Source: an uncultured Burkholderiales Genera incertae sedis bacterium (lineage in GTDB: Bacteria; Pseudomonadota; Gammaproteobacteria; Burkholderiales; Eutrophovitaceae). From it: a stretch of DNA of 37,312 bases. Positions within the stretch are counted from its first letter, which is position 1; every line of letters starts with the position of its first letter. The stretch covers positions 1 through 37,312 of the forward strand of contig CAJQIK010000046.1 of the NCBI GenBank assembly GCA_905478365.1. Direction: 5' to 3'. Below the pieces are notes generated by a model. It ran no database searches and was not told where the DNA came from. It saw only the letters and a list, made by a program, of their open reading frames with translations. Below are positions 24,797-28,932 of this stretch, in pieces. Made by a program: the position numbers and the translations under genes.

Positions 24797-26086
24797 ATGC
24801 AAATTAAATTAAATTATGGTCGCGGCAGTATCCCGTTAAACGTTCACGAGAGCTGGAATCCAGAAATCATTCGTAAACCATTAATGCCATTTGAAAAAAA
24901 TCCAAAATCAGCAATAACCAAGGCCCTAAACAACCCGGTTAACGCGTTACCACTATCAGAAATAGCTAAACATAAAAAGAATGCATGCATTCTCATCTGT
25001 GACATAACAAGACCAGTGCCAAATCATCTGCTGCTACCTGAGATAGTAGCTGTTCTCGTGGAAAATGGCATTCCAACAAAAAACATTGAGATACTTATAG
25101 CCACTGGGCTGCATCGACCCAACGAGGGGAAGGAACTCGAACAGCTCATTGGCAACAAGTGGATTTTAAATAATATTAAGATCTCTAATCATTTCGCGAA
25201 AAATGAAGAAGATCATGTATTTATGGGAGTCACGACCAAAGGCACAACAGTCAAACTCGATAAACGATTTGTAAATGCCGACCTAAAAATTGTGACTGGA
25301 CTCGTCGAACCACATTTTATGGCGGGTTATTCCGGAGGAAGAAAGGTAATATCACCTGGGGTTGCCCATCAAGATACCATTACCACCTTCCACAACCATA
25401 AGTTCATGTCTAACCCACAAGCGGACAGCTGTATTTTAAAAGGAAACCCCTTACACGAAGAACAACTCGAGATTGTCGCCATGATTGGAGAGGTGCTCAG
25501 TGTGAATGCGGTTTTAGACGAACACAGAAACTTATCGTTGGTTAACTATGGTGAAATTATTGCTAGTCATTTAGAGGCAGTAGACTTTGCAAAAGATTAC
25601 CTCTCAGTACCTGTTAAGCGTAAATTCAACACTATCGTCACAAGTGCAGCAGGGTATCCATTGGACGCCACGTATTATCAAACGGTCAAAGGAATGGTTG
25701 TCCCGTATCAGATTCTTGAGCCCGGAGGAGATTTAATAATCGCGTCAGAATGCGCCGAAGGTCTTGGCTCTAATGAATTTAAGAAAGCACAAAAAATGCT
25801 TGTCGGGACGGGAGCAGAGGACTTTTGCGCTAAGATTTCAGCGAAGTCCTACGCCGCAGTAGACGAATGGCAAACACAAATGCAAACTAAAATCATGAAT
25901 GTTGGTAATGTACATTTATACGCGCCCGGTCTGCAACGCTCGGATCAGAAATTGACCGGAGTAAACATTATTAGGGATTTAAACGAATTTGTAGAATCTC
26001 GAGTGATTAAAAACCTAGACTTATTCGGGGAATCTAGCTTAGCGATCATCCCAGAAGGGCCTTACGTCGTTCCAACGCTGAACTGA
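24797..26086 (+). CDS. LarA-family nickel-pincer racemase/epimerase homologue
   Basis: From the ATG at 24797 the product has 429 residues. Positions known from Lactobacillus plantarum LarA are all present: Asp69 and Arg72 in CDITRP, His106 in GLHRP, His173 in EPHFMAGYSGGRK, Lys183 (the residue that binds the NPN cofactor), His199, Gln295 and Lys298 in YQTVKG, and Trp358. The last three have the same numbers as in LarA, supporting this start over a TTG at 24758. The family racemises or epimerises alpha-hydroxy acids (lactate, malate, aldonates), so the substrate is open. No larB, larC or larE lies in the window. No clear ribosome-binding site precedes the ATG. Confidence 0.88.
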   Translation: MQIKLNYGRGSIPLNVHESWNPEIIRKPLMPFEKNPKSAITKALNNPVNALPLSEIAKHKKNACILICDITRPVPNHLLLPEIVAVLVENGIPTKNIEILIATGLHRPNEGKELEQLIGNKWILNNIKISNHFAKNEEDHVFMGVTTKGTTVKLDKRFVNADLKIVTGLVEPHFMAGYSGGRKVISPGVAHQDTITTFHNHKFMSNPQADSCILKGNPLHEEQLEIVAMIGEVLSVNAVLDEHRNLSLVNYGEIIASHLEAVDFAKDYLSVPVKRKFNTIVTSAAGYPLDATYYQTVKGMVVPYQILEPGGDLIIASECAEGLGSNEFKKAQKMLVGTGAEDFCAKISAKSYAAVDEWQTQMQTKIMNVGNVHLYAPGLQRSDQKLTGVNIIRDLNEFVESRVIKNLDLFGESSLAIIPEGPYVVPTLN

Positions 26087-26133
26087 TTAAATTTACTCGG
26101 GCCAGACCAGTAAAAAAACCTTAAAGGAATCAA

Positions 26134-27432
26134 ATGATTCACAAAAAAATAGACGTTCCAATTGCTGGAGGGCTAAATTTCCCATTACAGAGTATGGTTA
26201 GGGTGGAGCAAAAATTCAGCGCACCGCAGATTGGCGACATCAAAGCAACCATCAAAAATGAATTCGCCAAAGAAGCCATCAGAAACAAAATCAAGCGAGG
26301 TCAAAAAATTGCTGTTGGTTGCGGTAGCCGAGGAATCGCCAATATTGCAATCATTACCAAGTCAGTTATTCATGAATTAATCAGCCTCGGAGCTGAACCT
26401 TTCATTTTTCCATGCATGGGCAGCCATGGGGCGGCTTCGGCTGAGGGGCAAAAAGAAGTTCTAGCGGGATATGGCATTTCAGAAGAAACAATGTCTGTGC
26501 CAGTGCACGCAACAATGGCGACAGAAATCGTTGGTCACCTAGAAGATGGAACACCGGTGCACGTGGATAAAAATGCTTCGCATGCTGACGGCATTGTCGT
26601 GATAAATAGAATAAAACCACATACAGCATTTCGCGGTGCTACTGAAAGTGGACTAACTAAGATGCTTGCAATTGGCATCGGAAAAATCAACGGGGCGGCG
26701 ACATATCATAGACATGGCATGGATATGTTCCCATCGTTACTCCCGAAGATTCGAGACGTGAACATAAAGCAACGCAACGTATTGTTTGGTGTAGGTATTG
26801 TAGAGAACGCATTTGACCAAACAGCCGTGATCGAAATCATTCCTGCCGATCAGATCGCCGATAAAGAGCCGGATCTGCAAAGGCTCGCAAAGGAAAACAT
26901 GCCCAAACTCAACTTCTCACGTATAGATGTTCTGATTATTGATGAAATGGGTAAAAACATCAGCGGCGCCGGTTTCGATCCAAACATTACAGGCCGTAAT
27001 CGACGTGCGGTAGCATGGAGCCATGCGCTAGATGTTAAAAAAATTGTAGTTTTACGACTCACCCCCGAGAGTCATGGGAATGCGACAGGCATTGGTGGAG
27101 CAGACGTGATCACAATGCAACTCTATCGAGACATGGATGTGGGCGCGACATACGCTAATGTCGCCACATCAATGAATCTTGATGGCGCAGCAATTCCGAT
27201 CATTATGAATTCAGATCGAGACGCGATCGCGCTAGCAATTAAAACTGTGGTTCGAACCACCCCCGAGAACTGCCGTGTTGTGAGAATAAAAAACACGTTA
27301 TCACTCGGTGAGATTTATGTTTCGCAAAATATGGTAGAAGAAATTAAGAATAATCCTGATCAATTTACCATCATGTCAAACGCAAAAAACTGGCAGTTTG
27401 ATTCCGAGAATAAGATTCAACCGTTCGACTAA
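26134..27432 (+). CDS. Divergent LarA-like (DUF2088-type) protein
   Basis: A 432-residue soluble protein. Its landmarks mirror LarA in order: GSRGI (Arg66), MGSHGAASAEGQ (His98), INRIKPHTAF (His163), SGLTKM (Lys176) and YHRHG (His192, His194). I infer an N-terminal LarA-type domain. The spacing from KPH to Lys is 13 residues rather than the 10 of true LarA, so cofactor binding is not assured. The C-terminal half (DEMGKNISGAGFDPNITGR, then GGADVITMQL) differs from LarA. AAAGGA lies about 6 nt before the ATG, and it follows the larA-like gene by 47 nt, so the two are probably one operon. Substrate unknown. Confidence 0.75.
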   Translation: MIHKKIDVPIAGGLNFPLQSMVRVEQKFSAPQIGDIKATIKNEFAKEAIRNKIKRGQKIAVGCGSRGIANIAIITKSVIHELISLGAEPFIFPCMGSHGAASAEGQKEVLAGYGISEETMSVPVHATMATEIVGHLEDGTPVHVDKNASHADGIVVINRIKPHTAFRGATESGLTKMLAIGIGKINGAATYHRHGMDMFPSLLPKIRDVNIKQRNVLFGVGIVENAFDQTAVIEIIPADQIADKEPDLQRLAKENMPKLNFSRIDVLIIDEMGKNISGAGFDPNITGRNRRAVAWSHALDVKKIVVLRLTPESHGNATGIGGADVITMQLYRDMDVGATYANVATSMNLDGAAIPIIMNSDRDAIALAIKTVVRTTPENCRVVRIKNTLSLGEIYVSQNMVEEIKNNPDQFTIMSNAKNWQFDSENKIQPFD

Positions 27433-27744
27433 TTAGTGCGTCGCAATAAGATATGTACATAAGATTCTTTGTAACTTGTTTGAGTCCCACTTCTAATGGT
27501 CATATTGATGCATGTACGTTAATAGGGAGAAATAAAACGCGCATTTTTGGTGCAGGTTCAAAGTTTCATCTCAAATCGATACGTCGTCTATCCACAAAAA
27601 CTGTGGATAACATCATTTAGTTACTGAACTCGATAATTAAAAGTTGTTTGCGCTTAATAGTTTTGTTTGTGCTGATTAAAAATTAATCAGCACAAGAAAT
27701 CTTGTTATAACAAATTTTATTAATATTATAAATATTTATTACTT
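27433..27744. other. 312-bp intergenic region rich in inverted repeats
   Basis: I find no convincing gene here. The region is AT-rich and contains three perfect dyads. TATCCACA/TGTGGATA (27589-27609) includes one perfect and one near-perfect DnaA-box-like 9-mer facing each other. TTGTGCTGATTA/TAATCAGCACAA (27667-27695) has 12-bp arms and a 5-nt loop. TTGTTATAACAA (27702-27713) is a 12-nt palindrome just upstream of the enolase-family gene. They could hold the terminator of the upstream operon and the promoter/operator of the downstream gene. Confidence 0.6.
27702..27729 (+). promoter_or_regulatory. Possible promoter and operator of the enolase-family gene
   Basis: The palindrome TTGTTATAACAA contains TTGTTA (27702-27707) as a possible -35 box. 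TATTAT at 27724-27729 is a possible -10 box after 16 nt. A repressor bound to the palindrome would block the -35. Its shape resembles operators of GntR-type repressors, though no regulator gene is in the window. The start site would fall within about 10 nt of the ATG, giving a nearly leaderless message. Confidence 0.3.
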
Positions 27745-28932
27745 ATGAGAATAATAGACATACGTACAATTCCTTTAGAAGTGGTGCTGCATGAAACCGT
27801 CTTTGACGCCAACTATACGATGAAAAATAAACCTGCTCTTTTAGTTGAAGTGATAACTGATGAAGGATTAGTTGGCATAGGCGAGGCGGCGCATTTTGGG
27901 GGACCGATGAGTTCGACTGCACATGTCATTGAGCAGGAGCTTAAACCTTATTTAGTGGGTGAGGACCCCGTCAATACAGAACTTATTTGGGACCTAATGC
28001 ACAAACGCGCATACAAGCATGGTCGCGGTGGAATAGTGATCGCCGCTATCAGTGGAATTGATATTGCGCTTTGGGATATCAAAGGAAAAATTGCTGGCTT
28101 ACCTTGCTGGCGTTTGATGGGTGGATATCGAAAGCGAGTACCTGCTTACGCTACGGGAGGCTTTTACTCGAGCAGTAAAAACAATGACGCTCTTATCGAT
28201 GAAATGCGCAAATACATTGACGCAGGATTTCGAGCCGTCAAAATGAAAGTTGGCCGCAACAGCACTATGGAACTGTCTCCGTTACGCACTTCAGAGGAAT
28301 GTGGCATTGCGGAAGTTTCCCTCCAAGAAGACATCGAACGTGTCGAGCTAGTAAGACAAACGATTGGACCCGATATCAAGCTCTGCGTTGATGCAAATGG
28401 TGCGTGGGATGTTGCAACCGCTGTCAAAATGGGCCGCCGATTGGAGCACTACGATATATATTGGCTCGAGGAGCCGGTTTGGCCGGACGACATACTCGGC
28501 AGCAGAGAAGTAGCTAAAAAACTATCCATTCCAATTGCTGGATACGAAACCTGCAGCTATGGCATTGTGGACTTTCAAAAATACATTAGCCACCGAGCGG
28601 TTCATTTTGTGCAACCTGACGTTGCGTGGTCAGGCGGATTAACCGAGTGTTTAAAAATCGCCCACCTTGCTCAGGCAGCTAATTTACCTCTGGCTCCGCA
28701 TATTCATGGCTCAGCGGTAGCGGTTGCCGCGGGCCTTCATCTTCTAGGCGCAATAAGAAACGGAAGTATGGCTGAGACCGTATTCCCAGCGCATCCATTA
28801 ATGACACAACTGGTGAAGGAGCCGCTCACCATTAATGGAGATACAGGTGACATTACACTGTCCGAAAAACCCGGATTAGGTATCGATCTCAACTTGGATG
28901 TTTTAGAGCAATACAGAACAGATAGGGCTTAA
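27745..28932 (+). CDS. Mandelate racemase-type enolase superfamily enzyme
   Basis: A 395-residue predicted cytoplasmic enzyme. An N-terminal capping domain (residues 1-125) is followed by the barrel. The catalytic set of the mandelate-racemase subgroup is present: Lys166 and Lys168 in KMKVG; metal ligands Asp216 (VDANG), Glu242 (EEP) and Glu268 (YE); and the Asp292 (QPD)/His319 (APHIHGS) dyad. Such enzymes abstract the proton alpha to a carboxylate and are usually sugar-acid dehydratases or racemases. About 15 extra residues follow the KxK motif. No ribosome-binding site is visible. The LarA-like neighbours fit a hydroxy-acid or sugar-acid pathway; the substrate is not predictable. Confidence 0.88.
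   Translation: MRIIDIRTIPLEVVLHETVFDANYTMKNKPALLVEVITDEGLVGIGEAAHFGGPMSSTAHVIEQELKPYLVGEDPVNTELIWDLMHKRAYKHGRGGIVIAAISGIDIALWDIKGKIAGLPCWRLMGGYRKRVPAYATGGFYSSSKNNDALIDEMRKYIDAGFRAVKMKVGRNSTMELSPLRTSEECGIAEVSLQEDIERVELVRQTIGPDIKLCVDANGAWDVATAVKMGRRLEHYDIYWLEEPVWPDDILGSREVAKKLSIPIAGYETCSYGIVDFQKYISHRAVHFVQPDVAWSGGLTECLKIAHLAQAANLPLAPHIHGSAVAVAAGLHLLGAIRNGSMAETVFPAHPLMTQLVKEPLTINGDTGDITLSEKPGLGIDLNLDVLEQYRTDRA

Follow-up and report, generated by a model that had tools for sequence, protein, structure and literature searches.

Do two LarA-type genes and an enolase-superfamily gene lying in a row on one bacterial contig belong to a common hydroxy-acid pathway? The question is raised by a stretch of 37,312 nucleotides (the window) from an uncultured Burkholderiales bacterium of the Eutrophovitaceae (assembly GCA_905478365.1, contig CAJQIK010000046.1; 1.83 Mb in 156 contigs, 94.67% complete), in which larA (product P0001) is followed by a divergent LarA-like gene (P0002) and a gene of the mandelate racemase subgroup (P0003), three intact open reading frames (ORFs), all on the forward strand. 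An initial annotation, made from the sequence alone, had proposed that they serve the racemisation or epimerisation, and then the dehydration, of a sugar or hydroxy acid. Its gene order, strands, coordinates and the 47-nt spacing between the first two genes (26087-26133) were confirmed, and its three-gene pathway is partly supported: what is conserved is the pairing of larA with the divergent gene, predicted to encode two isomerases dependent on the nickel-pincer nucleotide (NPN), and the P0003 gene is a neighbour in one lineage. LarA and the divergent protein belong to described families, and P0003 is an unassigned member of a large known subgroup. The coordinates of the features are collected in Table 1.

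The Conserved Pair

In PMC7583248 and PMC11770544, NPN-bound enzymes of the LarA family are described as inverting 2-hydroxy acids at C2, with the 2-keto acid formed transiently by oxidation. The divergent protein belongs to one such family, group 22, and the company of its gene was followed in 38 genomes, namely the 23 of 120 relatives in which group 22 was found and 15 of the 97 negatives. LarA is present in 21 of the 38, and in 18 of these 21 its gene adjoins a group-22 gene, the exceptions being G032, G044 and G089; larA and the group-22 copy found in the window (paralogue b) are a conserved two-gene pair. By the LarA gene, the nearest relatives with a name include Betaproteobacteria bacterium TMED22, Burkholderiales bacterium AH-141-I18 and Betaproteobacteria bacterium UBA3031 (LarA identity of 86%, 82% and 80%, respectively), all of which we take to be marine; the bacterium of the window is accordingly regarded as a betaproteobacterium of that order. 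Across the phylum group 22 is rare, occurring in 3 of 398 genomes with the present one included, and therefore just two further loci came from that sample; it was found in 15 of 80 larA loci (the best 80 of 114). In G032 the group-22b orthologue, not adjoining larA, is followed by genes for an aldehyde dehydrogenase, a zinc alcohol dehydrogenase and a tartrate dehydrogenase (L101, 9069-14664).

P0001 matches Lar_N with 200.4 bits (Pfam cut-off 23.3) and LarA_C with 55 bits. All nine nickel-pincer positions that the initial annotation had listed (Asp69, Arg72, His106, His173, Lys183, His199, Gln295, Lys298 and Trp358) are present and do not vary across P0001 and its 20 orthologues (52-86% identity; 21 sequences in all), and the same holds for F174-M175, which follow the second catalytic His, and for the later W358-Q359. 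The loop after the second catalytic His is Leu-Met or Phe-Met in LarAH group 2 (SAR), as stated in the main text of PMC7583248, and F174-M175 agree with this rule; judged by its residues, P0001 is probably a racemase of short aliphatic 2-hydroxy acids of the group 2 (SAR) type. Its best match in the PDB is LarA of Isosphaera pallida (LarAH2/SAR; 9eia, 9eid, 9eif; 300 bits, residues 3-428), which has the same catalytic, cofactor and carboxylate residues, loop Met and Trp-Gln pair, but Leu174 in place of Phe174. A Gln at the T359 position could, according to the main text of PMC11770544, explain the glycerate preference of LarAH43. Against the equivalog NF033504 (Ni_dep_LarA) P0001 scores 342 bits, below the curated cut-off of 460.

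The surroundings of larA orthologues were sampled in 84 loci, the best 80 of the 114 found and four plasmid loci; their genes were called with a composition-weighted caller and tblastn. A glycerate kinase gene lies nearby in four loci (Rhizobium ruizarguesonis, Rhodovastum and two Roseospira) and a lactate-permease-family gene likewise in four, a context that loosely fits lactate or glycerate racemisation. The R. ruizarguesonis kinase is below the equivalog cut-offs; those of Rhodovastum and Roseospira are of a second family, and the two that were scanned both exceed its cut-off.

P0002 matches nearly the full model of NCBIfam NF052515, 'nickel pincer cofactor-dependent isomerase, group 22', with 513 bits (cut-off 400; residues 19-406 of 432), and is slightly over the Pfam cut-off for Lar_N (32.3 vs 23.3 bits). 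An AlphaFold2 model built from 15 sequences, with a mean predicted local distance difference test (pLDDT) score of 76.7 and with most of residues 273-296 and 310-354 under 50, has the LarA fold: all 18 Foldseek matches at E<=0.001 are LarA-family chains, and a VIA search returned 12 LarA-family entries at Z 19.0-20.9, the next entry standing at 6.0. R66, H98, H163, K176 and H192 are invariant in 16 group-22 members from betaproteobacteria, alphaproteobacteria, firmicutes, actinobacteria and haloarchaea, the others being 36-66% identical to P0002. In an hhalign alignment with LarA, H98 pairs with H106, H163 with H173, K176 with K183 and H192 with H199, and R66 falls one column off R72; as aligned, P0002 retains the cofactor ligands and both catalytic His. 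The initial annotation had allowed for a partner or a second racemase; family, fold and residues support P0002 as an intact second NPN-type isomerase, which would bind NPN as LarA does.

The D-gluconate 2-epimerases GntE (LarAH19/20; 4nar) resemble P0002 in having the LarA fold (Z 19.0 to 4nar), and their aldonate C2 chemistry is that proposed for P0002; they belong to other LarA groups, the likeness being one of fold. The main texts of PMC7583248 and PMC11770544 assign no activity to group 22 and contain neither 'LarAH22' nor 'group 22' as a term; the supplementary neighbour table of PMC7583248, a separate document, may already tabulate the group-22 neighbourhood association. The accessible text of PMC12611868 does not mention 'group 22'. 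The literature search returned no publication linking LarA-type enzymes with mandelate racemase gene clusters, none on a glycerate racemase and, judged by title, nothing relevant on LarA together with altronate dehydratase.

Cofactor Genes and the Two Group 22 Paralogues

The initial annotation made its pathway depend on NPN biosynthesis genes in the genome. These were found on contig C28, where a second group-22 gene (paralogue a) precedes larC, larE and larB, and all exceed their curated cut-offs (given here in brackets): LarB 268 (175), LarC 172 and 89 (90 and 50) and LarE 219 (150) bits. From larB, larC and larE the genome is predicted to be able to make NPN. Among the relatives, larB over the cut-off together with larC occurs in all 23 group-22-positive genomes and in none of the 15 negatives, of which 13 have weaker larB-like matches and one (G005) is 64% complete.

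An IlvD/Edd gene lies divergent from the group-22/lar row of C28; it is cut by the contig end, and its product is 61% identical to an annotated L-arabinonate dehydratase. In a sister genome, where the gene is complete, its product scores 967 bits against an L-arabinonate dehydratase cut-off of 882. Of 17 paralogue-a loci in the order, 10 carry an IlvD/Edd gene no further than 8 kb away and seven do not.

In a maximum-likelihood tree of 37 group-22 proteins, some of whose outgroup rows are long-branched, the 'a' and 'b' copies lie on separate branches, each with 100/99 support versus the other, and P0002 falls within one of these two betaproteobacterial clades of NF052515. Nine of the ten 'a' rows adjoin larC, and the tenth, from G032, lies on the larC contig without adjoining it; three of the 12 'b' rows do not adjoin larA. 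Since two group-22 matches are present in 21 of the 23 positive genomes (G007 and G098 have one), two substrates are suggested.

P0003, a Neighbour in One Lineage

P0003 holds both MR_MLE domains (Pfam), and alignments to 5olc, 4ggb and 5xd7 place the whole KxK / D-E-E / D-H site ascribed to it at K166-x-K168, D216, E242/E243, E268, D292 and H319; by these domains and residues it belongs to the mandelate racemase subgroup. Domains and site are common to galactonate dehydratase 5olc and arabinonate dehydratase NF040866, and P0003 stays below the cut-off for all 18 NCBIfam families listed, dehydratases and others, with 289 bits for NF040866 (cut-off 650) and 215 for galactonate dehydratase (cut-off 311).

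Orthologues of P0003 (E<=1e-100) were found in 9 of the 120 relatives, all nine of them group-22-positive (hypergeometric p 8e-8, a value that ignores kinship, eight of the nine being of one family). Because an orthologue adjoins the larA-group 22 pair in 8 of 18 pairs, all from one family, stands apart elsewhere and is separated by a gap of 312 nt in the window, the P0003 gene is a lineage-specific neighbour of the pair; the conserved neighbourhood that had been expected for three genes holds for two. The P0003 gene possibly has a promoter or transcription unit of its own.

Several observations concern the surroundings of such genes. NicO (nickel-transport family) matches lie near the P0003 orthologues of G038 and G509 (L258, 2703-3521 and 7672-8700; L261, 9825-10724 and 14833-15630); two of the four, with 37.5 and 30.5 bits, exceed the Pfam cut-off of 27.7, the others reach 27.3 and 24.0, and a nickel link of the P0003 block is possible. 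Near larA-group 22 in relatives, three mandelate-racemase-type genes each are present in L116 (2250-12356) and L119, the P0003 orthologue included, and two each in L117 and L120.

Dehydratase Genes near Group 22 and a Proposed Role

Outside the order, 16 group-22 loci were chosen by their group-22 matches and not by dehydratase matches, and genes of the mandelate-racemase, UxaA, IlvD/Edd and UxuA types were sought within 8 kb. One of the first three types is present in 9 of these 16 loci, as against 1 of 69 larA-only loci (Fisher p 2.5e-7). Mandelate-racemase-type genes, whose numbers per locus were taken from gene calls and not from hit bins, recur near group 22 in Sporomusa, Rubrobacter, Natronococcus and Natribaculum, the last fetched through such a match. 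These loci support a frequent association of group-22 genes elsewhere with genes for acid-sugar dehydratases, including mandelate-racemase-type ones; larA alone shows little link of this kind. Three loci fetched through mandelate-racemase matches (L198, L210 and L217) were left out of the count: in Natribaculum group 22 adjoins a P0003-like gene, in Haladaptatus salinisoli two LarA-like genes lie among mandelate-racemase-type genes, and Natrinema zhouii has a P0003-like gene and no annotated group-22 gene in the stretch.

The explanation preferred here is that two NPN-dependent enzymes, each inverting C2, are encoded as a two-gene unit. LarA would use proton-coupled hydride transfer to racemise a short 2-hydroxy acid, with lactate and glycerate the likeliest substrates. 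Group 22, for which the role is proposed because of its gene company, would by the same chemistry take an aldonate whose C2 configuration is the wrong one and produce the epimer usable by an acid-sugar dehydratase, and the dehydratase, with P0003 as the candidate here, would convert the epimer into a 2-keto-3-deoxy acid. NPN would be supplied from the larC-larE-larB genes elsewhere in the genome, beside paralogue a; this paralogue may work for the L-arabinonate-dehydratase-like enzyme and paralogue b for P0003. The two assignments, a short-hydroxy-acid racemase and an NPN-dependent aldonate C2-epimerase feeding dehydratases, are together given an even chance of being right. If they are, an NPN enzyme group that so far has a family name only would gain a concrete substrate class, and the retention of three NPN-type isomerases and the cofactor genes in assemblies of 1.4-2.1 Mb (some incomplete) would be explained. 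The wider proposal is held with more reserve and is judged somewhat doubtful: group 22 would be a class of aldonate C2-epimerases that widens the substrate range of acid-sugar dehydratases whose folds are unrelated (mandelate-racemase type, UxaA, IlvD/Edd) in bacteria and haloarchaea, and an old betaproteobacterial duplication would have left two specialised copies, one associated with the cofactor genes and in many cases with an L-arabinonate-dehydratase-like gene, the other with LarA and, in one lineage, with a P0003-type dehydratase.

A number of points weigh against the preferred explanation. In the comparison of loci, an annotated mandelate-racemase gene at the cut edge of L193 was missed by the script, and with it the larA-only count becomes 2 of 69 (p 1.3e-6); of these 69 loci, 30 fall short of 15 kb, and a control confined to those of at least 15 kb gives 1 of 39 (p 1.6e-5) or, with L193, 2 of 39 (p 7e-5). 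The 16 loci include related Rhodobacterales and haloarchaea, and the dehydratase queries were partly taken from these same loci. Seven of the 16 have no dehydratase of the kinds sought; by annotation, Marinovum has KDPG (2-keto-3-deoxy-6-phosphogluconate) aldolase and KDG (2-keto-3-deoxygluconate) kinase genes instead, Paenibacillus uxaC, Haladaptatus QDMS2 a class II aldolase and an FGGY kinase, Halocatena a sugar ABC (ATP-binding cassette) transporter, and Halorussus, Haloarcula marismortui and Halomicrobium a DUF4147 gene each. Neither a glycerate kinase nor a lactate permease was found at E<=1e-10 in 76 of the 84 larA loci. As regards P0002, the Foldseek template-modelling scores (TM-scores) to LarA chains are 0.41-0.53, the substrate-binding part of the model is of low confidence, and the hhalign match of group 22 with LarA is weak (probability 57.5%, E 1e-4, 201 columns, N-terminal half). 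The P0003 gene, for its part, is not adjacent in 8 of the 16 judgeable pairs (the contigs of G004 and G016 end too early), lies about 95 kb from the pair in G038, and in G509, of the same family as G038, stands between a palindrome and a Sel1-repeat gene, the 16 kb examined containing no match to larA; in the window itself it is set off by the gap at 27433-27744.

Alternative Explanations

The last of these points bear most directly on the idea that the P0003 gene is a chance neighbour, larA and group 22b being a two-gene NPN unit and P0003 part of a separate block. The 312-nt gap and the adjacency in only 8 of 18 pairs suit this idea, as does the company that P0003 orthologues keep in another family, that of G509 and G038, namely the palindrome and the Sel1-repeat gene or, in G038, only a short Sel1-like match; the palindrome and the Sel1 gene also occur together in G084, where P0003 is missing. 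A chance neighbour would not, however, be expected to have its orthologues confined to group-22-positive genomes (nine of nine in the 120), nor to have counterparts of the mandelate-racemase type near group 22 in the four genera named above, and the idea is regarded as a serious contender that falls short of an even chance. A different partner for the pair is envisaged if both NPN enzymes act on C3-C4 acids of the glycerate, threonate or tartrate type, in a pathway ending in the glycerate genes. The genome has in a row genes for a 2-oxo-tetronate/hydroxypyruvate isomerase, a tartronate semialdehyde reductase (both over a cut-off) and a glycerate-kinase-family protein, which is below the equivalog cut-offs and matches DUF4147; glycerate could therefore be used, under the preferred explanation for LarA as well, and a GlxK-type glycerate kinase is absent from the genome. 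The same direction is indicated by the DUF4147 gene that lies 0-1 genes from group 22 in three haloarchaea (L211, L213 and L216), by the tartrate dehydrogenase near group 22b in G032 (536 bits, cut-off 470), by the larA orthologues with glycerate kinases, and by a 2-oxo-tetronate isomerase gene close to the P0003 orthologue of G509; the first two also count among the points against the aldonate role. Against this, the glycerate row has no linkage to the window, and group 22 more often has dehydratase genes for neighbours (9 of 16). Moreover, a glycerate kinase, considered as a marker of LarA function and rejected, is of little help to either explanation: the DUF4147 family is not diagnostic because it is present in 19 of 23 group-22-positive and in 9 of 15 negative genomes, the latter without lar genes. 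Action on C3-C4 acids is considered unlikely.

Group 22 might also catalyse another hydride-type reaction or be a partner subunit of LarA. The main text of PMC7583248 notes that some groups without equivalents of H174 or K298 may do other chemistry, the groups being unspecified there, and no positions of P0002 could be matched to LarA Gln295 and Lys298, the model being of low confidence in that part, with much of 273-296 under pLDDT 50, and hhalign covering the N-terminal half only. Both catalytic His and the cofactor ligands are nevertheless kept in the 16 group-22 members compared, and the gene does not depend on larA as a neighbour, because it stands apart from larA in G032, G044 and G089 and because no second larA-type gene was annotated or read beside it in the 16 outside loci; both variants are thought improbable, more so than action on C3-C4 acids.

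The Palindrome and the Flanks of the Locus

The gap between the P0002 and P0003 genes contains a palindrome, TATCCACA-N5-TGTGGATA, and a terminator-like hairpin (Table 1); the hairpin is weak evidence, as 7 such sites were found in the 5 kb scanned vs 4.8 expected in shuffles. The palindrome has a single site in this genome and is present in 122 of the 399 genomes examined from the order, usually once in each, with a spacer of 5 in 72 of the 75 sites counted among the matches listed; a reversed-pattern control was found in 2 genomes. It resembles a pair of inverted DnaA boxes. Its role as an operator of these genes, first considered from its presence in 13 of 14 genomes, was rejected in view of the 122 of 399 genomes, in which the neighbour genes differ per family, and G084, where P0003 is missing and the palindrome stays with the Sel1 gene, also speaks against it; it is judged to be a chromosomal landmark and not an operator of larA, group 22 or P0003.

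Table 1. Location of the genes and sequence elements discussed (window coordinates unless a contig is named).
Feature	Location	Strand	Remarks
Small predicted membrane protein, 114 aa	24372..24716	+	Upstream of larA; TTG start in ORF list
larA (P0001)	24797..26086	+	Signature of group 2 (SAR type); predicted racemase of short-chain 2-hydroxy acids
Group-22 NPN-dependent isomerase, paralogue 'b' (P0002)	26134..27432	+	NF052515 score, LarA fold, invariant residues, tree
Palindrome TATCCACA-N5-TGTGGATA	27589..27609	.	Within gap between P0002 and P0003 genes
Terminator-like hairpin	27666-27696		Within the 312-nt gap
Mandelate-racemase-subgroup enolase-superfamily enzyme (P0003)	27745..28932	+	Predicted acid-sugar dehydratase; below each NCBIfam cut-off listed
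Second group-22 gene (paralogue a), then larC, larE, larB	contig C28, 1170-5206		Same genome

The left flank of the larA locus carries tRNA, EF-Tu, SecE and NusG genes, and the right flank a Sel1-repeat gene followed by a MoxR/DUF58/VWA-type set. The nearby TRAP (tripartite ATP-independent periplasmic) transporters or dehydrogenases that had been looked to as possible companions did not appear: a Pfam search of nine flanking window proteins (eight with a match) named no transporter and no dehydrogenase. The protein of 114 aa encoded upstream of larA, read from its sequence, is probably a membrane protein; it has no Pfam or NCBIfam match, and the membership of its gene in the larA unit is uncertain. 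Homologues of it lie upstream of larA in sister genomes, with 72%, 27% and 27% identity.

It is also worth recording that a RidA/YjgF-like gene lies near larA in 11 of the 84 loci, 10 of these with group 22 (L116-L120, L128, L154, L155, L164, L166 and L168), its identity being confirmed by Pfam for L116, and that aldo-keto reductase matches likewise occur near larA in 11 of the 84, one of them weak (L193, 25%).

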